From assembly GCF_003797125.1 (NCBI RefSeq), contig NZ_RKKE01000003.1, forward strand, positions 372,001 through 436,000: a stretch of DNA of 64,000 nt, read 5' to 3'. A model generated the notes under the pieces. The model had not been told where the DNA came from, did not search any database, and saw only the letters and a list, made by a program, of their open reading frames with translations. Every line of letters begins with the position of its first letter. The stretch's first letter is position 1. Made by a program: the position numbers and the translations under genes. This stretch comes from Shewanella frigidimarina. GTDB lineage: Bacteria; Pseudomonadota; Gammaproteobacteria; Enterobacterales; Shewanellaceae. Positions 24,696 to 35,406 of this stretch are shown piece after piece.

Positions 24696-25427
24696 ATGAA
24701 CTCTCAACAAGATACGATATACGCTCATGTGACCGACCAAATTACAGATTTTCAATTTGATCAACGTGTTGCCGGTGTATTTAATGACATGATCCGTCGC
24801 TCCGTTCCTGGCTACGCACAAATCATCAATACCATTGGTGATTTTGCTAACCGTTTTGTCACACCCCAAAGCAATATATACGATCTTGGCAGTTCATTAG
24901 GCTCAGCTACGTTAAGCATTCGTCGCCAAATTGAAGGGCGCGGATGTCAAATTTATGCGGTAGACAACAGTCAGTCGATGATTGAACGTTGCACTGAAAA
25001 TCTTGCAGCGTATGTCAGCGACATCAAAGTCAATTTATTGTGTGCTGATATCAGAGATATCGACATCAAGAATGCCTCTATGGTGGTGTTAAACTTTACC
25101 CTACAATTTCTACCCACTCATGATCGGGATGCTTTAATTAAACGTATTTACGATGGTATGTTACCGGGTGGAATTTTAGTCATTTCAGAAAAATTATTCT
25201 TTGAAGATAACCATATCCAACAATTACTAGATGAACAGCATTTAGATTTTAAGCGCTCAAATGGGTATAGTGAGCTCGAGATAAGTCAGAAACGCAGTGC
25301 ATTAGAGAACGTTATGCGTCCAGACAGCTTAAATGTACACCAACAACGCTTAACCGAAAACGGCTTTAGTCACTTCTCAGTTTGGTTTCAATGTTTTAAC
25401 TTTGCATCTATGGTAGCGATTAAATGA
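24696..25427 (+). CDS. cmoA: Carboxy-S-adenosyl-L-methionine synthase
   Basis: CmoA makes carboxy-SAM from SAM and prephenate; CmoB then uses it in the synthesis of 5-oxyacetyl-uridine (cmo5U) at the tRNA wobble position 34. The 243-residue product has a Rossmann methyltransferase fold with motif [19 protein letters not shown], and V-L-N-F-T-L-Q-F, all typical of CmoA. The stop overlaps the cmoB start by four bases (ATGA). Confidence 0.95.
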
Positions 25428-26416
25428 TCAATTTTAGCTCTTTTTATAAAGACATTGCTGATTCGAACCTACAACACTGGTTAGAAACTTTACCGGCAAT
25501 TTTAGGTAAATGGCAACGAGATCATAAACACGGTAATTTACCTAAATGGGAAAAAGTGCTCAATAAATTACATTATCCTCAACCGGATAATATCGATTTT
25601 AGTAGCAGTGTAACGATTGGAACAGGAGAACAACTCAGCCCCGGACAAGTTGAAAAACTCACTAATTTACTGGCGGTGTTTCAACCATGGCGTAAAGGTC
25701 CATTTTCCGTTCATGGTATTCAAATTGATACTGAATGGCGCAGTGATTGGAAATGGGATCGAGTCAAAAATTTTATTTCGCCATTAAAAAATCGCACTGT
25801 GTTAGATGTGGGTTGTGGTAGTGGCTACCACATGTGGCGGATGTTAGGTGATGGTGCAACTCGCGTTGTAGGCATTGATCCTTCACCGTTATTTTTATGC
25901 CAATTTGAAGCAATCAAACGAGTGGCCGGCAATCAGCACCCAGTATATTTGTTGCCTCTGGGCATAGAAGAATTACCTCCATTAGATGCCTTTGATACGG
26001 TGTTTTCTATGGGCGTGCTCTACCATCGTCGCTCACCGATAGACCATTTACTACAATTACGCGACCAATTAAGAGTCGGTGGTGAACTGGTACTTGAAAC
26101 ACTGGTGATTGATGGCGATGAAAATGCAGTACTTGTTCCACAAGATAGATATGGCAAAATGAACAACGTTTGGTTTATACCATCTGTTGCTGCCTTAATG
26201 TTATGGTTAAAGAAATGTGAGTTTATTGATATTCGTTGTGTTGACATCGATATCACCTCACTGGCAGAACAACGCAGCACCCACTGGATGAAAAATGAAT
26301 CTCTAGTCGATTATCTCGATCCTAATGATGTGAGTTTAACCGTAGAAGGTTATCCCGCGCCCAAGAGGGCCATCATTATTGCAACAAAGAACCAACCGAA
26401 TCACGATCTAGTATAA
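25424..26416 (+). CDS. cmoB: tRNA U34 carboxymethyltransferase
   Basis: CmoB transfers the carboxymethyl group of carboxy-SAM to 5-hydroxyuridine 34 in tRNA. The 330-residue product has an N-terminal extension, then motif [15 protein letters not shown] and G-I-D-P-S. The conserved [14 protein letters not shown] block is diagnostic. It is translationally coupled to cmoA. The next gene starts only 25 bases downstream with no terminator between, so the following envelope cluster may be cotranscribed. Confidence 0.95.
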
Positions 26417-26441: not shown

Positions 26442-27212
26442 ATGTTAAAGCAGGTAATTGCTCTATCCGTTGCAGCGGCCCTAATATCGGGTTGTACAAC
26501 CATCCAAAAACCAATAACACCTCCGCTGACAAATGCTGACTTGAATAGCAGTTTGCAAGTTTCGCAAACCGTCATTATTGATGCAATTAATTCACAGAAT
26601 AGTCAGCAAGCAAGCGACATAAGCGCTCTTTCTGAGGAAATGCGTAAGTTGAAGACTCAGATAAGCACCGCGATGAGTCAAAAACCAAAAACCATCATTG
26701 TTCAACCACCAATGCCAAAACCAGTCTCGGTTCCACAACAATGTCCGGAAGCTATGATTGGCGAGAAGTTTTTACTTGGTGAAGTCGAGAGTGTATTTGT
26801 TGATGAAGTCAAAGCCAAGTTTGCGACTCGCATCGATACTGGTGCTGAGTCATCATCTTTAGATGCGCGCAATATCGTATTGTTTGAACGAGAAGGCGAA
26901 CAATGGGTTCGCTATGACGTGATGACTAATGGAATAGACCAACCCGTCAATACATTTGAATCTAAAGTTGAGCGCTTTGTCCGTATAAAACAAGATGCTG
27001 ATACAGGTGATGATCGCCGCCCAGTTATCCACGCCCATTTAAAAATAGGTAAATATGCAGCCGAAACGGATTTAAACCTTACGGATCGAAGCCACCTAGA
27101 TTATCCTTTGTTACTAGGTCGTAAGTTTATGAAAGATATTGCCATTGTTGATGTAGGCCAAATCTACGTTCATGGTAAAGCCAAAAACCAAATTACCACG
27201 TTAATTAAGTAG
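26442..27212 (+). CDS. Retropepsin-like putative zinc protease lipoprotein (PF05618 family)
   Basis: The 256-residue product has a lipoprotein signal with lipobox I-S-G-C (Cys18), a helical and low-complexity linker (about 40-105) and a C-terminal domain of the type called ATP-dependent zinc protease or RimB-like, with a retropepsin-like D-T-G at 132-134 (followed by A-E-S-S). The L-L-G-R-K-F-M-K-D and V-D-V-G segments are also typical. Related proteins occur beside RimK-like ATP-grasp ligases. It is nine bases upstream of the next gene. Proteolytic activity is inferred from the motif, not shown. Confidence 0.82.
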   Translation: MLKQVIALSVAAALISGCTTIQKPITPPLTNADLNSSLQVSQTVIIDAINSQNSQQASDISALSEEMRKLKTQISTAMSQKPKTIIVQPPMPKPVSVPQQCPEAMIGEKFLLGEVESVFVDEVKAKFATRIDTGAESSSLDARNIVLFEREGEQWVRYDVMTNGIDQPVNTFESKVERFVRIKQDADTGDDRRPVIHAHLKIGKYAAETDLNLTDRSHLDYPLLLGRKFMKDIAIVDVGQIYVHGKAKNQITTLIK

Positions 27213-27220
27213 GATCCGTA

Positions 27221-28729
27221 ATGCATTCTCGTAAACCGTTTTACATATTCGTTGCGTTGCTATTTATCATTGGTATTAGCACCAGCATATATCGTGGTGT
27301 TGAACACAATGTGCCTTTTTTACCTGGTGAACAGGTACAAAGCTGGGCTGTGGATGCCAAAATCAGTTTTAATGGAACGAATCAACCTGCTGAGGTCAAT
27401 TTCTCATTACCGAACGATCCTGCATTTGACATCTTAGTTGAAAATGCATCATCACCAGGTTATGGCTTAAATATTTCAGCTGATGCCCATAATCGTCGCG
27501 CAGTATGGTCAATACGTGATGCTTCTGGCTCACAAGCATTATATTACCGAGTGACTTTAGTACCGACAGGCAAGCTTAATATTGAAGCTGTCGAAGAACC
27601 TGCCACGCCAGAATTATATTCATGGCCTGCAACAGAAAAATCAGCAGCAGAGCAAGTCATTGAAGAAGTATGGGCTCGCAGTGCGACTAATTTATCGTTT
27701 GCTCAACAATTGATGAATTTGATTAACGATAACGATCAAAGCCAGAATATGGCGTTGTTATTATCTGCTAATACTTCAACCAATTTGTTTGTACGCATGC
27801 TGCATTCAAAAGGTGTCCCTGCACGTATCGTTAATGGTTTGCAACTTGAAGATCAGCGACGTCGTCAACAGCTTACATCATATGTGCAAGTTTATAACGA
27901 TGGAGCATGGGAGCTTTTTGACGTCCCAAACAACAAAAAAGGCCGTGATAATACCCTAGTGCTATGGGAATATACTGGTCACTCTGTGCTAGATGTCATG
28001 GGAGGAAATAATTCATTAGTTAATTTCTCAATGCTACAAGATACTCGTTCAGCATTAGCAACATCTATCGACATGATGATGAATGACGATGCATGGGATT
28101 TCTCCCTATATCAGTTACCACTTGAAGAACAAAGCACCTTTAAAGGCATTCTATTAATCCCAATCGGCGTATTAGTCGTGGTGTTTTTACGTGTCATTGT
28201 TGGCATCAAAACATCAGGTACCTTTATGCCTGTTTTGATTGCGCTAGCGTTCATCCAAACTACCCTATTAACTGGCTTAATCGGTTTCTTATTGATTGTT
28301 GCCTTTGGTTTAATGATCCGCTCCTATCTGTCCACACTCAACTTACTGCTCATATCCCGAATATCGGCGGTCATTATAGTGGTGATTTTTATTATCGGCT
28401 TGTTTACCTTAATTTCATTCAAGTTAGGTTTAAGTGAAGGATTAACCATTACCTTCTTCCCGATGATCATTCTTGCCTGGACTATTGAACGTATGTCTAT
28501 TCTGTGGGAAGAAGAAGGTCCTAAAAAAGTCTTTGTATCGGGTGGCGGTAGCTTATTTGTGGCGACATTGGCGTACTTAGCTATGGACAACCAATTAGTT
28601 CAACATTGGGTATTCAACTTCTTAGGCATTCATTTAGTGATTTTAGCCTTGGTATTAGTGATGGGACAGTACACTGGTTACCGTTTAACTGAGCTAAAAC
28701 GCTTTAAACCATTAGTTGGAGAGCAATAA
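27221..28729 (+). CDS. Inactive transglutaminase-like protein with seven membrane helices
   Basis: The 502-residue product has one N-terminal helix (about 7-25), a periplasmic domain of about 280 residues with a transglutaminase-like core (A-T-N-L-S-F-A-Q-Q and the V-P-A-R-I-V-N-G-L segment) lacking a convincing catalytic Cys, and a C-terminal block of six to seven helices (about 305-490). This is the architecture of the Transglut_i_TM/7TM_transglut families predicted by comparative genomics to work with ATP-grasp ligases and zinc-protease-like proteins. It overlaps the next gene by one base. Substrate and role are unknown. Confidence 0.8.
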   Translation: MHSRKPFYIFVALLFIIGISTSIYRGVEHNVPFLPGEQVQSWAVDAKISFNGTNQPAEVNFSLPNDPAFDILVENASSPGYGLNISADAHNRRAVWSIRDASGSQALYYRVTLVPTGKLNIEAVEEPATPELYSWPATEKSAAEQVIEEVWARSATNLSFAQQLMNLINDNDQSQNMALLLSANTSTNLFVRMLHSKGVPARIVNGLQLEDQRRRQQLTSYVQVYNDGAWELFDVPNNKKGRDNTLVLWEYTGHSVLDVMGGNNSLVNFSMLQDTRSALATSIDMMMNDDAWDFSLYQLPLEEQSTFKGILLIPIGVLVVVFLRVIVGIKTSGTFMPVLIALAFIQTTLLTGLIGFLLIVAFGLMIRSYLSTLNLLLISRISAVIIVVIFIIGLFTLISFKLGLSEGLTITFFPMIILAWTIERMSILWEEEGPKKVFVSGGGSLFVATLAYLAMDNQLVQHWVFNFLGIHLVILALVLVMGQYTGYRLTELKRFKPLVGEQ

Positions 28730-29685
28730 TGAAGTACGCCTGGCCCTGGGAATTGAGCCGTAGCGGTGTACTCAACATGAACAGGCGCAATATTAGCTAT
28801 ATTGGTCGTTATAATCAGCGTAAGTTTTATAAACGCGTTGATGACAAACTAATTACTAAGCAACTTGCGCTTGCTAATGGCATTGCGGTTCCCGATTTAA
28901 TTGGGGTTGTTCATGAACAACATAAAATCCAAGAAATTCCAGCTATGGTTCTTGACCGTAGCGGTTTTGTCATAAAACCGGCAAAAGGTTCTGGCGGTAA
29001 AGGCATTATGGTAATCACCAGAGTGAGCAATGGCTGTTATTACAAGCCCAATGGCCACGAAGTGACTCATAGTGAAATTTATCGTCATGTATCTAACATT
29101 TTAAGTGGTTTATTCTCACTCGGCGGTAAGCCTGATGTCGCGATTGTTGAAGGACTAATTGAATTTGATCCAGTTTTTGAAGGCTTAAGTTATGAAGGTG
29201 TCCCTGACATCCGCTTAATTGTGTTTAAAGGCTTTCCTGTCATGGGAATGTTACGTTTATCAACTGCTGCATCTGATGGTAAAGCAAATTTACACCAAGG
29301 CGCTGTAGGTGTGGGTTTGGATATCGCTACCGGAAGCAGTTTGCATGCTGTGCAATTTGATTTACCCGTTGATAAGCATCCTGATACTCATTTTCCACTG
29401 TCGAACATCAAAGTTCCTCATTGGGAAACCTTACTCCACACAGCATCGAGTGCCTACGAAATGTGCGAGTTAGGGTATTTAGGTACTGACATGGTGTTAG
29501 ATAAAAACAAAGGCCCACTGCTACTTGAATTGAATGCACGACCAGGTCTAACAATTCAAATTGCCAACGGTAGAGGGATTTTACCTCGACTTAAGCATGT
29601 CGAAGCGATGAAAAGCTCAACAATGTCAGTTGAGGAACGCGTGGCTTATGCTAAAAAGCATTTTTGTAGCAACCCTATTTTTTAA
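28729..29685 (+). CDS. ATP-grasp alpha-L-glutamate ligase-like protein (TIGR02291 type)
   Basis: The 318-residue cytoplasmic protein has an ATP-grasp fold: V-I-K-P-A-K-G-S-G-G-K-G (nucleotide loop, about 82-93), the acidic metal-binding pair late in the domain and L-E-L-N-A-R-P-G-L, the typical Mg2+-binding segment. Length and sequence style match the RimK-related glutamate ligase-like group, which forms amide bonds between an amino acid and a carboxylate with ATP. The acceptor is unknown. Its 3' end overlaps the next coding sequence by 38 bases. Confidence 0.82.
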   Translation: MKYAWPWELSRSGVLNMNRRNISYIGRYNQRKFYKRVDDKLITKQLALANGIAVPDLIGVVHEQHKIQEIPAMVLDRSGFVIKPAKGSGGKGIMVITRVSNGCYYKPNGHEVTHSEIYRHVSNILSGLFSLGGKPDVAIVEGLIEFDPVFEGLSYEGVPDIRLIVFKGFPVMGMLRLSTAASDGKANLHQGAVGVGLDIATGSSLHAVQFDLPVDKHPDTHFPLSNIKVPHWETLLHTASSAYEMCELGYLGTDMVLDKNKGPLLLELNARPGLTIQIANGRGILPRLKHVEAMKSSTMSVEERVAYAKKHFCSNPIF

Positions 29686-31450
29686 TATTTTGGCCACAGC
29701 AAGCGCTGTGGCTAATCCCTTAGCACTGTTCGTCGAACAGTGCTTACAATATCAACCTGATTTAGGACAAGACAAGCTTGTTTCTTTTCAGTCTGTTGAA
29801 CAACAAGCTGTTGAATTTGAAAAACGCACACTTGCGTTAAATAATATCAACGACAGAATTCAATATTACCGCCCTTTCGCCAACGACAGCCTAAATAGAC
29901 AAGGCTTATTATGGTGTCAATTACACCTTGCCGATGAACTTTATGCGCTAGCTACAGCAACCAATACCCAACGCTTAATTGATCAGTTGCTACAGCTTCG
30001 ACCACCTTATGATCAATTAGGACAACGCTTAGTCGCCATAAGAGAATCGCAGTGGGAGTTAATCCAAAAGTCAAAACTGCACAGCGCCCAGGCAAGCAAT
30101 AATCAAGCATTATCACAGCAGCAATTTACCATGCAGTTTAATCAGCCGGACTGTGCATTAACTAATGAACTGAATGCGGATAGCAACAATACCAATATTG
30201 AAATTCGTATTGCCAAATATTTACTTAAACAGCCCAATGAACATTGTAGAAAACAGGCTTGGCTTGCCTATCAAATTCGAGCGAAAGACAAACAAGCTTC
30301 AGCGCTTGCATTAATCCATCAATTACAACAACAGCATGCTATTGCTCAAGACTATGATAATAGCGCACAGGCACAACTCTCATTACATGACCTAACGCCA
30401 CAGTTGTTAACGCAATTCTTAGCAAGCCAAACAATTAACCTTGATATTGCGCCATGGAATATCGCCAATGCTCTTAGCCGAGTCAGTAATTCATCGACCA
30501 TAAAGCCGATTGCTACGGATGCATTTTTACAGAAAATCTTCGAAAGCCTAAAAGCTTTAGATCTCAAGTTTGAATTCATCACAGTAGGTGATGCTAGAGT
30601 TGATCATTCTAAAATAGACAAAACGACGTCGCCTAGTGATAGTCAACAAAACAGCCTTAGTGATACGCAACTCATCCGCGTTTGGCACCAACAGCGATTA
30701 ATGGGAGAAATTTTTACATATACACAAGATGAACAACACGATCCTTTAAACGTAGATAGTCAATTGATAAAACAAACTGTTATAGGTCATCAATTCGGTC
30801 AATATTCGCTAAACTTTCCATCACAATTAACCCACGTAAAACAACAACAAAAATTAATTAACGCATTAAGTCGAGCAATAGTATCCTTGGCGCAAGGTCG
30901 TCAGTTTTATTTCCTCACCAATAGAGCACAAAACACTGAGGCCCATGCGATTGCCACGCAATGGCTCGCATACTACCTTGAGCAGCAGCTAAACCTACCA
31001 AAATTGTCTAAACGTCATCGATTAGTGGCGCAATATCAACAACAATTATGGGTATTTAGAGCAAAGGTTTCGCTAGCTTTTTATCAATATAAAGGTGATT
31101 TCAAAGGTGCGCAGCAGGAGGTTTGGTTAAGCCATAATCAATCTCTGTCTACAGCTTTTGAACAAAGCTTTGGCTTACCATGGCCAAACGCAACGGATGC
31201 AATATTTAGTTATCAAGCTATTGCTAATCAAGGTATTAATCATTATCTTCCTTTATGGCAAACGGCATTGGCTCAATTAATCATTGCAAAGACACCAGCC
31301 CAAATATCGCCTAATGAGATATTTGATTTATTGGTTGTAAACGAAACACATTTAACCTTAAACGATCAACTTGAGCGGCTTATTGGCCTACCAATTGACC
31401 CACATTCACTTATCAGGAGATTTAAACATGCTGGAACTACGCAAGAGTAA
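29648..31450 (+). CDS. Secreted protein resembling a degenerate M3 metallopeptidase
   Basis: The start is placed at the ATG at 29648, giving a signal peptide M-L-K-S-I-F..A-S-A-V-A-N and 600 residues; an upstream TTG at 29630 would spoil it. By eye the order of segments follows M3 oligopeptidases: a helical N-terminal part, a block at 219-258 like the M3 region before the catalytic domain, I-A-P-W-N-I (267-272) in place of the usual P-W-D-I/V, a R-V-W-H..L-M-G-E-I-F strand (344-356), and C-terminal helices. Where HEFGH should sit, residues 405-409 read N-A-L-S-R, so zinc binding and catalysis are lost. The family link is my inference and needs a profile search; otherwise it is an unrecognised periplasmic protein. 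Nested between an ATP-grasp ligase and a DUF3541-like gene. Confidence 0.6.
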   Translation: MLKSIFVATLFFNILATASAVANPLALFVEQCLQYQPDLGQDKLVSFQSVEQQAVEFEKRTLALNNINDRIQYYRPFANDSLNRQGLLWCQLHLADELYALATATNTQRLIDQLLQLRPPYDQLGQRLVAIRESQWELIQKSKLHSAQASNNQALSQQQFTMQFNQPDCALTNELNADSNNTNIEIRIAKYLLKQPNEHCRKQAWLAYQIRAKDKQASALALIHQLQQQHAIAQDYDNSAQAQLSLHDLTPQLLTQFLASQTINLDIAPWNIANALSRVSNSSTIKPIATDAFLQKIFESLKALDLKFEFITVGDARVDHSKIDKTTSPSDSQQNSLSDTQLIRVWHQQRLMGEIFTYTQDEQHDPLNVDSQLIKQTVIGHQFGQYSLNFPSQLTHVKQQQKLINALSRAIVSLAQGRQFYFLTNRAQNTEAHAIATQWLAYYLEQQLNLPKLSKRHRLVAQYQQQLWVFRAKVSLAFYQYKGDFKGAQQEVWLSHNQSLSTAFEQSFGLPWPNATDAIFSYQAIANQGINHYLPLWQTALAQLIIAKTPAQISPNEIFDLLVVNETHLTLNDQLERLIGLPIDPHSLIRRFKHAGTTQE

Positions 31451-32558
31451 AACACTCTCGTATTTACTATTGTCAGCTACGTTGTTTAGTAGTGTGGCGT
31501 TCGCTAAAGAGTCAGTTGAAAAAACATCACATAATTTAACGGCTGATCAAGTTTATCAAGGAATTAAAACCAATTTAGAAACCAACCTTTATTCATTACC
31601 TCCGCGTGTGCAAGGGCATTATGCTATTCGTCAATTTCGTATGACGGGCGAAACCAAATACGCTAATGGCTCATTAATCGATTTACTAACCATTGCAGAG
31701 CGCCAAGCTTACTATTCTTGTAATCTTGATAAACCCGGTTTTATTAAAAGCGAATCACAAATTGAAGTGGATAAGTTAGGCAAAGGTCCTCGCGGTATCG
31801 CGCGTAAAGAAGCCATCGCCCCTTACCCGAATTTTATGTTATATAGCGATGTTTTATTACGTTACGCCAGTCGTGTAGACGAGTTTGGTTTTACCGGACC
31901 GTGTCATGATTTAATGATTAAAACGTTAAAAAATGCCAACTTAGAACCCGCTTTAACAGATAAGAAGATGATCAGAGCTTGGGCGGCACAGCTAATTAAC
32001 TATGTGTACTGGGCTAAGCAAGTTGGTGTCGGTGATTATTATGAAGCTTACAAAAAAGCCTTCATTAACACTTATCCTGACAGCAATGATGCTAAGCTCA
32101 AAAAGAGTCAATATAAAAACAAAGTTTATGGTATGACTCACTTTATTTTTTCAGCTAGCGAGTATTATCAACATTCGGTTGACCCAAAAGAATATCAGTG
32201 GATTTTAAATTACTTTGAAAAAAACATTGATCGCATTTTGACCGATACTACCGAAGATATTATTACTGAAGTAGGTATTAGTTTCTTAATTACTGGCAAC
32301 GGTGATAACCCAGTGGTAGATAAAGTTAAAAAGCATGTGATTGCAGCTTACGATCCTAAACTGATGATGATCCCGTCACCACATGGCAAAGCTGAATTAT
32401 CTTCTGGTGAACACAGAAACGTATTAGCAATGATGTTACTAGATTGGCCTGAAACGTTACATAAAGGACCATATTTAAATAATATTCCTAGTACTAAGAA
32501 ATACTTACCTAAACTGGTTAAGCCTAAAGCGTCTATGAACGATGCCAAATCACACTAA
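31428..32558 (+). CDS. Secreted all-helical protein, DUF3541-like
   Basis: The ATG at 31428 is preceded by CAGGAG and gives a clean signal peptide (M-L-E-L-R-K-S...S-V-A-F-A, cut near residue 26) in a 376-residue protein. A longer frame from 31371 lies inside the upstream gene and is rejected. The mature part is helical, rich in Tyr and Lys, with conserved-looking Y-A-I-R-Q-F-R-M-T-G-E, G-P-C-H-D-L and S-G-E-H-R-N motifs. I associate it with DUF3541 from memory, at moderate certainty. Function is unknown. The overlap of 23 bases with the preceding gene suggests coupling. A terminator follows. Confidence 0.65.
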   Translation: MLELRKSKTLSYLLLSATLFSSVAFAKESVEKTSHNLTADQVYQGIKTNLETNLYSLPPRVQGHYAIRQFRMTGETKYANGSLIDLLTIAERQAYYSCNLDKPGFIKSESQIEVDKLGKGPRGIARKEAIAPYPNFMLYSDVLLRYASRVDEFGFTGPCHDLMIKTLKNANLEPALTDKKMIRAWAAQLINYVYWAKQVGVGDYYEAYKKAFINTYPDSNDAKLKKSQYKNKVYGMTHFIFSASEYYQHSVDPKEYQWILNYFEKNIDRILTDTTEDIITEVGISFLITGNGDNPVVDKVKKHVIAAYDPKLMMIPSPHGKAELSSGEHRNVLAMMLLDWPETLHKGPYLNNIPSTKKYLPKLVKPKASMNDAKSH

Positions 32559-32664: not shown

Positions 32665-33564
32665 ATGAGCAGAGCCAAATCAACCCTAGAACAATGGCGA
32701 ATTGTCCAAGCTGTCGTTGATTTTGGAGGTTATGCTCAGGCAGCAGAAAAACTCAATAAGAGTCAATCATCGCTAAACCATGCAGTGGCCAAACTGCAGC
32801 ATCAACTGGGTATAAACTTACTCGAAGTCAAAGGTCGCAAAGCCTATTTAACCGAGCAAGGTGAAGTGTTATTACGTCGTTCTCGTCATTTAACCCAATC
32901 GGTTGAAGAGCTTGAACAACTCGCCAATAATTTAGGTCAAGGCTGGGAACCTAACCTAACGATCGCCAGAGAAATCATTTATCCTATGGACACGCTAGTG
33001 GCAGCTCTAAACGAATTTTTACCACTAAGTCGTGGTACAAGGGTAACGATTATCGACTCGGTGATCACCGGTACTCATGAACTTGTGCTTAATAATGAAG
33101 TAGACATTGCTATTTGTGCTACACCACCTAAAGGTCATATTGCAGAGCCATTATGTGAATCAAATTTTGAACTTGTGTGCCATCCAGACCATCCGCTTGC
33201 GCAATTAGAACGCATAGATGATGACAAGCAATTAGCCCAACATTTACAAATTGTGATTAAAGATACGGGAATAAATGCAATCAATGATATTGGTTGGCTT
33301 AAAGCGGAACAACGTTGGACAGTATCGAACTTTCATGAAGCAAAATCCATTTTAGCGCGCAACATCGGTTTTTGTTGGATCCCGAACTTTGTTGTGCAGC
33401 AAGAATTGCAAAATAAACAACTCATCCGCCTGCATTTACGTGGAGGTAATAATCGAAAAGCAATATTGAATCTGGTTGTCCCTAATAGAGATCAGCAAGG
33501 CCCTGCCTGTAAATTATTAGAAAGCTTAATGTTAAAACAGCATAACTTACCTTTTAATGGTTAA
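32665..33564 (+). CDS. LysR-family transcriptional regulator
   Basis: The 299-residue protein has an N-terminal winged helix-turn-helix (about 8-65: W-R-I-V-Q-A-V-V-D-F-G-G-Y-A-Q-A-A-E-K) with the LysR pattern S-Q-S-S-L-N-H-A-V-A-K-L-Q-H-Q-L-G, then a linker helix and a periplasmic-binding-protein-like effector domain (about 90-295). Start ATG at 32665 follows an AAAGAG sequence. It lies behind a terminator, so it has its own promoter. A link with the upstream envelope cluster is possible but not shown. Confidence 0.9.
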   Translation: MSRAKSTLEQWRIVQAVVDFGGYAQAAEKLNKSQSSLNHAVAKLQHQLGINLLEVKGRKAYLTEQGEVLLRRSRHLTQSVEELEQLANNLGQGWEPNLTIAREIIYPMDTLVAALNEFLPLSRGTRVTIIDSVITGTHELVLNNEVDIAICATPPKGHIAEPLCESNFELVCHPDHPLAQLERIDDDKQLAQHLQIVIKDTGINAINDIGWLKAEQRWTVSNFHEAKSILARNIGFCWIPNFVVQQELQNKQLIRLHLRGGNNRKAILNLVVPNRDQQGPACKLLESLMLKQHNLPFNG

Positions 33565-34122: not shown

Positions 34123-35406
34123 TTATACGTAGATTTCGATGGATTGATGTTGTTGTGAATAACGTTCTGGGGAAGGTAGAGATTGACTAGTTGAATCGTT
34201 AACTGCTGTTGTGTCGTTTGCAATAGTAGAATGACTCTGTTCTGTTGATACTGAATGATTAGGAGACAATAGACTTATGTTTGAATCATCGGCATTAAGG
34301 GGATCATTGGTTAAAGTTTGACTGTTTTGAGCTCTAGAATTATTCATTTTTGTAGATGACACAGAATCTGAATTATTTGTTATTAACTCTTTCTTTGCTT
34401 CATTCATGTTTTGTAATGCTTGCGCCGCGACGCGAATATCCGCCATAGACGGTTGCACAGGAGCCATTGCTGCTGCATACACTTTCTGCATTTTAGTTAG
34501 GGTCGCTTGGGCGTCACCATCAACAGTAGACACATCGATATTAACCTCACCATCCACAGCATAACGACGTCCATCAGGGCCTTTTTCATATTGATAACTC
34601 GGGCTTTGCGCTAAACTTCCACCGACTGCAGCATGTGCTTGCTCGTGAGTTTTAACTTCGGTATCTCGCTGTGCAAGTTGATCAATCTGCTTAATTTCAG
34701 CTTGTTCTATTTGCTGTTGCTTGTCTTTTACCTGCTGCTCAACTTGCTGCTCTGCTGAATCATCCTGACTGTTTGACGTTTGAGGTTCTGTATTAACTGA
34801 CGATTCGTCTACGGATGAATTTTCTTCCGTCCTATTTGTCGCTACTGCTGAAGTATTTGTTTCTGTCGCTGAAGCATCCGAGGGTTGATTAAAGATATTA
34901 ACTATAGGCTGTTGAGCATTAACAACTTCACCATTACTCGTTCTTGTGGGTTTAGCTGTGCTCACAAATGTTCCAGCAGCGACATCAGTAGCCTGGGTTT
35001 GAATAGCTGAACGATTCAATACACCAGTAAGATTGAGCGGACCACTTTTCAAGCTGTAACTATTGAAGGGATCTGCAGCAACTATTTGTGGCGGCTTAAC
35101 CCCATTTGTATTTGCAGAAACAGAATTTGACGGAGCGTTCTGATGAGTATCCGTACTTAAATTGGGGTTAAAGTCGACTGATGCTTTAAAAGCTGATGTG
35201 ACTGTAGTTTGAATTGGGCTAGATTTGAGCGAACTGCTTTTTAATGAACTGTTTCTAACTTGATTTGAATGGATGATTTCAGGCCGAGCATCTATCACTT
35301 TAGCAGATGCCGGTTGAGCTTGTGGTGCAGATAAAGAATTGCGGTGGTTAAGTTGGGCAGTATTATTAACAGACCCAGTGTTAGCAGAAACCATCGCCGC
35401 ATTCAT
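34123..35406 (-). CDS. Putative metalloprotease of the SprA-related/CJM1_0395 type
   Basis: The 427-residue product has a long low-complexity Ser/Thr/Asn/Gln-rich first half (to about residue 215), a Gln-rich coiled segment (about 218-245), then the conserved core: H-E-Q-A-H at 254-258 (an HExxH zinc motif), A-A-V-G-G, Y-x-x-G-P-D-G-R-R-Y-A-V-D-G-E-V. This core is what is annotated as SprA-related or CJM1_0395-family putative metalloprotease. There is no signal peptide. The last 100 residues are again low-complexity. It starts two bases after the stop of the small upstream gene, so the two form an operon. Confidence 0.8.
   Translation of the reverse strand: MNAAMVSANTGSVNNTAQLNHRNSLSAPQAQPASAKVIDARPEIIHSNQVRNSSLKSSSLKSSPIQTTVTSAFKASVDFNPNLSTDTHQNAPSNSVSANTNGVKPPQIVAADPFNSYSLKSGPLNLTGVLNRSAIQTQATDVAAGTFVSTAKPTRTSNGEVVNAQQPIVNIFNQPSDASATETNTSAVATNRTEENSSVDESSVNTEPQTSNSQDDSAEQQVEQQVKDKQQQIEQAEIKQIDQLAQRDTEVKTHEQAHAAVGGSLAQSPSYQYEKGPDGRRYAVDGEVNIDVSTVDGDAQATLTKMQKVYAAAMAPVQPSMADIRVAAQALQNMNEAKKELITNNSDSVSSTKMNNSRAQNSQTLTNDPLNADDSNISLLSPNHSVSTEQSHSTIANDTTAVNDSTSQSLPSPERYSQQHQSIEIYV

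Follow-up and report, generated by a model that had tools for sequence, protein, structure and literature searches.

A predicted M3-fold pseudopeptidase in an rlo-like operon of Shewanella, with intact-site orthologues in the same gene slot

What does an exported protein with the fold of an oligopeptidase do once its catalytic site appears to be gone, and why is it kept beside genes of a system that processes polyglutamate? The question is raised by one gene in a stretch of 64,000 nucleotides from Shewanella frigidimarina (contig NZ_RKKE01000003.1, positions 372,001 to 436,000 of the forward strand; hereafter the window). A sequence-only reading had proposed that its product, here called M3L, is a secreted, catalytically dead relative of M3 peptidases that binds a peptide or amino-acid tag instead of cleaving it. 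As judged from sequence comparisons, M3L most probably records the conversion of an active secreted M3 peptidase into a pseudopeptidase inside one operon, with orthologues in the same slot that keep an intact site, a finding new here; our literature search found no described M3 pseudopeptidase of this kind.

The descent of M3L from, or its fold relation to, peptidase family M3 is secure. The window protein alone gave no match in Pfam or NCBIfam, and a first scan of genome contigs with this single sequence found no relatives, so that profiles of homologues were needed. A profile built from 29 genus sequences (31–84% identity to the window protein) matched thimet oligopeptidase (E 4.6e-7) and neurolysin, with E values ranging from about 5e-7 to 4e-6, and 21 of the 29 homologues individually matched PF01432 (best E 2.7e-8). 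Profile-profile comparison with 12 canonical M3 enzymes in hhalign reached Prob 97.8 with E 1.1e-12, the alignment covering 543 columns (residues 17 to 596), compared with 0.7% for a DUF3541 profile and 0–0.2% for column-shuffled M3 controls. The AlphaFold2 model of M3L (mean predicted local distance difference test score (pLDDT) 81.6, predicted template modelling score (pTM) 0.82) resembled neurolysin and thimet oligopeptidase (TOP/TOP2) with Foldseek E values down to 6e-13 and VIA Z scores of 21–22 over about 535 residues. Profile similarity and full-length fold thus both place M3L in family M3, in agreement with the M3-type relation first suspected from the letters alone. A profile built with intact M3L members matched canonical M3 enzymes class-wide, which supports the family link but makes that profile unusable for counting orthologues. 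The open reading frame is real, its start ATG lining up with the starts of homologues.

Significant M3 matches thus go together with aligned ligand positions that are vacant in M3L. In the hhalign alignment N405, A406, L407, S408 and R409 fall on H468, E469, F, G and H472 of the OpdA-type enzyme encoded in this genome, and MAFFT alignments agree with this placing, so that the earlier assignment of NALSR to the HExxH position holds to the residue. Nor has the motif moved: HExxH occurs nowhere in any of 73 full-length M3L sequences of the genus. The column of the catalytic Glu holds Ala in 44 of these 73 sequences, and the ligand and catalytic columns generally contain unrelated, unconserved residues. 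The third zinc ligand, the Glu of a DxxExPS-like motif, is replaced by A434 in M3L and by mixed residues across the genus; in the C-terminal catalytic segment, here FSYQAIANQGINHYLPLW, the catalytic His and the first Tyr are replaced by A524 and Q528. On these alignments there is a solid case that M3L has lost all zinc ligands and catalytic residues, and is predicted to be a dead M3 protein as the sequence-only reading had it.

What M3L has retained points to the cell envelope. Its hydrophobic N-terminus, read from the sequence, ends in ASAVA-N and recurs in similar form in homologues, which supports the proposed signal peptide; the protein is probably periplasmic. The suggestion that secretion is unusual for this family did not stand: lipoprotein-like signals also occur on two Dcp-type M3 enzymes of this genome, and secreted orthologues that keep the zinc site are found elsewhere in the same slot of the operon, so that secretion predates the loss of catalysis. 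Four Cys residues (C32, C90, C169 and C200) are present in 81 of 81 compared sequences, intact and dead, and presumably form two disulfides. Net charge differs between the two groups, ranging from +15 to +26 in intact M3L and from −15 to +10 in the dead forms; RloA proteins in the same loci as the intact forms lie between −6 and +4, and canonical M3 enzymes are mostly negative. With such a strongly basic character, intact M3L would suit acidic peptides as substrates, for example those that RloA releases, whereas the charge of the dead forms makes an acidic tag no obvious present ligand.

The intact orthologues came to light when 295 genomes of the order were searched, which yielded distant M3L members in three other families. 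In four loci (L045, L049, L050 and L051) the gene directly after rloC is an M3L with HEFGH or HESGH that also has both the third Glu and the His/Tyr segment; a fifth case, in Thalassotalea (L112), has the order rloA-rloB-rloC-M3L (HEFGH)-DUF3541-DUF3541. Three intact members scanned against PF01432 scored 149–156 bits. In a second dead group (L044, L046, L047 and L048), QQLG or RQLG replaces HEFG; the two members scanned scored 46 and 59 bits. In our trees the rlo-linked M3L sequences form one clade (100/100) separate from canonical M3 enzymes, within which intact forms are not grouped apart from dead ones; the outgroup row M3_L114 of the first tree (branch 3.86), whose reading frame is probably incorrect, was left out of the second. 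Dead forms group together (98/97) when the active-site columns are included, and their grouping is unresolved when those columns are left out. The dead state is derived, because the canonical M3 enzymes are intact, and it may have arisen once or twice.

The locus itself is an extended relative of the rlo operon. M3L is its fourth gene, preceded by rloA-, rloB- and rloC-like genes (26442-29685) and followed by a PF12060 gene, so that the proposed position between an ATP-grasp ligase and a DUF3541-like secreted protein was confirmed; 38 nucleotides of M3L overlap the upstream RloC-like ATP-grasp gene. The three rlo homologues stand in the known order, with RloA and RloB under the cut-offs of the NCBIfam RloA and RloB models. 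In Pseudomonas aeruginosa, RloA is a secreted retropepsin-like peptidase with a positively charged channel that cleaves polyglutamate; rlo mutants are altered in osmotic tolerance and shape, and deletions of rloB and rloC suppress the rloA phenotypes, namely that of osmotic tolerance and partly those of shape, biofilm and antibiotic resistance (PMC12239564). Vesicle release rose in Shewanella vesiculosa when the inactive-transglutaminase gene hm2192 was disrupted (PMC12096838). These phenotypes favor an envelope role. We infer that hm2192 is rloB, from its description and from the rloB-like gene being the single PF14402 copy in the genome analysed here.

Of 129 genomes of the genus, 127 have M3L and 108 have RloC. 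Nineteen of the 21 genomes without RloC keep M3L (loci L102, L103, L104 and L192-L207), with a full-length frame in 18 and a broken one in the remaining genome (G705). In the loci of this kind that were read, M3L lies directly between cmoB and lysR, and DUF3541 is lost as well. These genomes fall in at least two places of the tree (L102 near L011; L103 with L104), each with a dead M3L that outlived its neighbours. The reverse state was seen in another sampled genus of the same family (G064/L098), which has rloABC and lysR and lacks M3L. The dN/dS ratio (nonsynonymous to synonymous substitution rates) of M3L was 0.14–0.23 in six close pairs, indicating a protein under purifying selection. Stops or frame breaks interrupt M3L in G035 (L013), G705 (L195) and G727 (L209), two of which keep rloC; these copies represent natural loss-of-function cases.

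Taken together, we consider the chances about even that, as a whole explanation, an ancestral M3 oligopeptidase of the rlo pathway has become a non-catalytic, envelope-binding protein, the ancestral half being better supported than the present binding half. M3L would have descended from a secreted, probably disulfide-braced M3 oligopeptidase encoded by the fourth gene of an extended operon (rloA-rloB-rloC-M3L-DUF3541). In the lineages that bear the zinc site, it would most likely degrade acidic peptides freed by RloA in the periplasm; both the activity of the intact orthologues and RloA products as the ancestral substrate are suggested by their sequence features. In Shewanella the zinc ligands and catalytic residues were lost, while fold, export signal and the four Cys were kept. 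The present protein would most likely act in the envelope without catalysis, holding a peptide or a partner protein in what was once the substrate cleft, and would depend so little on RloABC that it outlasts their loss. Several observations weigh against this explanation. In the one pair compared, dN/dS was 0.23 for M3L, 0.02 for RloC and 0.06 for DUF3541, so that M3L evolves faster and is held less tightly than its neighbours; where the active site used to be, the dead forms have no evident ligand motif in common; the apparent charge difference comes from two intact-site lineages only; and, with rlo genes lost while M3L stays, rlo biology may say little about the present role.

Other explanations divide the same evidence differently. 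M3L could be a structural or regulatory partner of RloABC, such as a scaffold or a substrate presenter for RloA, with no role of its own; its presence in 108 of 108 RloC-bearing genomes of the genus and the gene overlap with rloC, suggestive of translational coupling, speak for this, but M3L is no necessary part of the rlo operon, since it persists in the 19 genomes without RloC, many families have rloABC and no M3L, and three relatives in another family also carry a dead M3L, with neither an RloC match nor rlo genes in the neighborhood. We therefore regard a mere partner role as unlikely. Binding of an amino-acid or peptide tag synthesized by the ATP-grasp ligase, as proposed in the sequence-only reading, would suit a gene that adjoins rloC in an operon with a polyglutamate-cleaving RloA, yet it is weakened by the persistence of M3L where no RloC-type ligase was detected, by the predicted cytoplasmic location of RloC (PMC12239564) as opposed to the exported M3L, and by the loss in the dead forms of the strong positive charge of the intact members; we hold it to be decidedly unlikely. 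It is more doubtful still that M3L, as a decoy or in an inhibitor-like manner, regulates other periplasmic peptidases, for instance the two Dcp-type M3 lipoproteins of this genome, through common substrates or partners: no direct link was found, and we know of no M3 enzyme that needs partners, even though such relatives with lipoprotein-like signals are at hand and Dcp disruption in S. vesiculosa, like that of hm2192, increased vesiculation (PMC12096838). A decaying relic or a chance resemblance is scarcely credible. The missing Pfam match of the window protein and the broken copies in two RloC-bearing genomes and one without RloC could be read in this way, but retention in nearly all genomes, a dN/dS well below 1 and the invariant Cys oppose decay, and the significant profile and fold matches oppose chance.

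If the conversion of an ancestral oligopeptidase into a binding protein is correct, intact and dead M3L in the same operon slot allow a direct comparison of an M3 enzyme before and after the loss of catalysis, where pseudopeptidases are often studied singly, with no active counterpart at hand. The rlo system would gain two genes, the peptidase and DUF3541, and the basic intact enzymes would point to acidic peptides. We tentatively favor, at somewhat less than even confidence, the broader picture of a five- to six-gene polyglutamate-processing operon with its own secreted, disulfide-stabilized M3 oligopeptidase, converted in one or two lineages into a pseudopeptidase whose new envelope function is independent of the operon, the dead copy being kept after its partners were deleted. 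Annotation pipelines overlook M3L, as the absent Pfam match illustrates. The coordinates of all features are collected in Table 1.

Table 1. Positions in the window of M3L, its residues of interest and the neighboring genes.
Feature	Position	Strand	Evidence or remark
M3L (name used here), predicted secreted M3-fold pseudopeptidase, 600 amino acids	29648..31450	+	profile, hhalign, structure model
Putative signal peptide, about residues 1-22, no lipobox Cys	29648..29713	+	hydrophobic N-terminus, read from sequence
C32, invariant Cys	29741..29743	+	
C90, invariant Cys	29915..29917	+	
C169, invariant Cys	30152..30154	+	
C200, invariant Cys	30245..30247	+	
N405-A-L-S-R409, place of HExxH zinc motif	30860..30874	+	hhalign, multiple alignments, 73 genus sequences
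A434, place of third zinc ligand (Glu in SDLxExP)	30947..30949	+	alignments
FSYQAIANQGINHYLPLW (520-537), place of C-terminal catalytic His/Tyr segment	31205..31258	+	alignments, genus sequences
cmoA-cmoB	24696-26416		upstream of rloA-like gene
rloA-like, secreted retropepsin-like peptidase	26442..27212	+	PF05618; best NCBIfam RloA3, below cut-off
rloB-like, inactive transglutaminase fused to 7 transmembrane helices	27221..28729	+	PF14400/PF14402
rloC-like, ATP-grasp glutamate-ligase-like protein	28729..29685	+	TIGR02291 above its cut-off
DUF3541 protein	31428..32558	+	PF12060; N-terminus looks like export signal (read from sequence)
LysR-type regulator	32665..33564	+	downstream border of locus, also in genomes without rloC

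The arrangement of DUF3541 varies between families. At this locus the gene is single in the genus, and downstream of intact M3L in other families it is tandem or fused (L045, L049, L050, L051 and L112), M3L of the first four loci having either a pair of DUF3541 genes or a single double gene after it; the fused double-domain protein has 702 amino acids (L045:8004-10109). In a family with two replicons (f21), DUF3541 is unlinked to rloC and often lies on the other replicon. A structure prediction from one DUF3541 sequence reached a pLDDT of 40, the profile had no match among solved structures, and our literature search found no description of the domain. A fused variant of RloC occurs in family f7, where the RloC-like ATP-grasp domain lies within a protein of about 806 amino acids (L099:4790-7207 and other genomes); no rloA or rloB homologues were detected near these loci. 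Further downstream in the window, an open reading frame at 34123-35406 on the minus strand encodes a low-complexity Ser/Asn/Gln-rich protein with an HEQAH motif, which we take to resemble an SprA-like putative metallopeptidase.

Compared with known systems, M3L and peptidase family M3 (PF01432: thimet oligopeptidase, neurolysin, OpdA and Dcp) are alike in whole-length fold and segment order, and share the conserved stretch CRkxvWqaYqxRA...N...A...GF.dYA and the C-terminal YY..LW segment, whereas M3L differs in the missing HExxH, third Glu ligand and catalytic His/Tyr, and, relative to canonical members, in its four invariant Cys, its export signal and its length of about 600 versus 680 residues. 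ACE and ACE2 of family M2 also resemble the M3L fold, but at a lower Z of 16 over about 470 residues, and M3 is the better match in fold score and in sequence. The P. aeruginosa rlo operon, described with three genes (PMC12239564), and the present locus agree in the order of their homologous genes for a retropepsin-like protein, an inactive transglutaminase-7TM protein and an ATP-grasp protein; the genus and several related families add M3L and usually one or two DUF3541 genes. The RimB/RimK polyglutamylation system likewise pairs a retropepsin-like peptidase with an ATP-grasp glutamate ligase (PMC12239564), but, unlike rlo, it is cytoplasmic and has neither an inactive transglutaminase nor an M3 gene.
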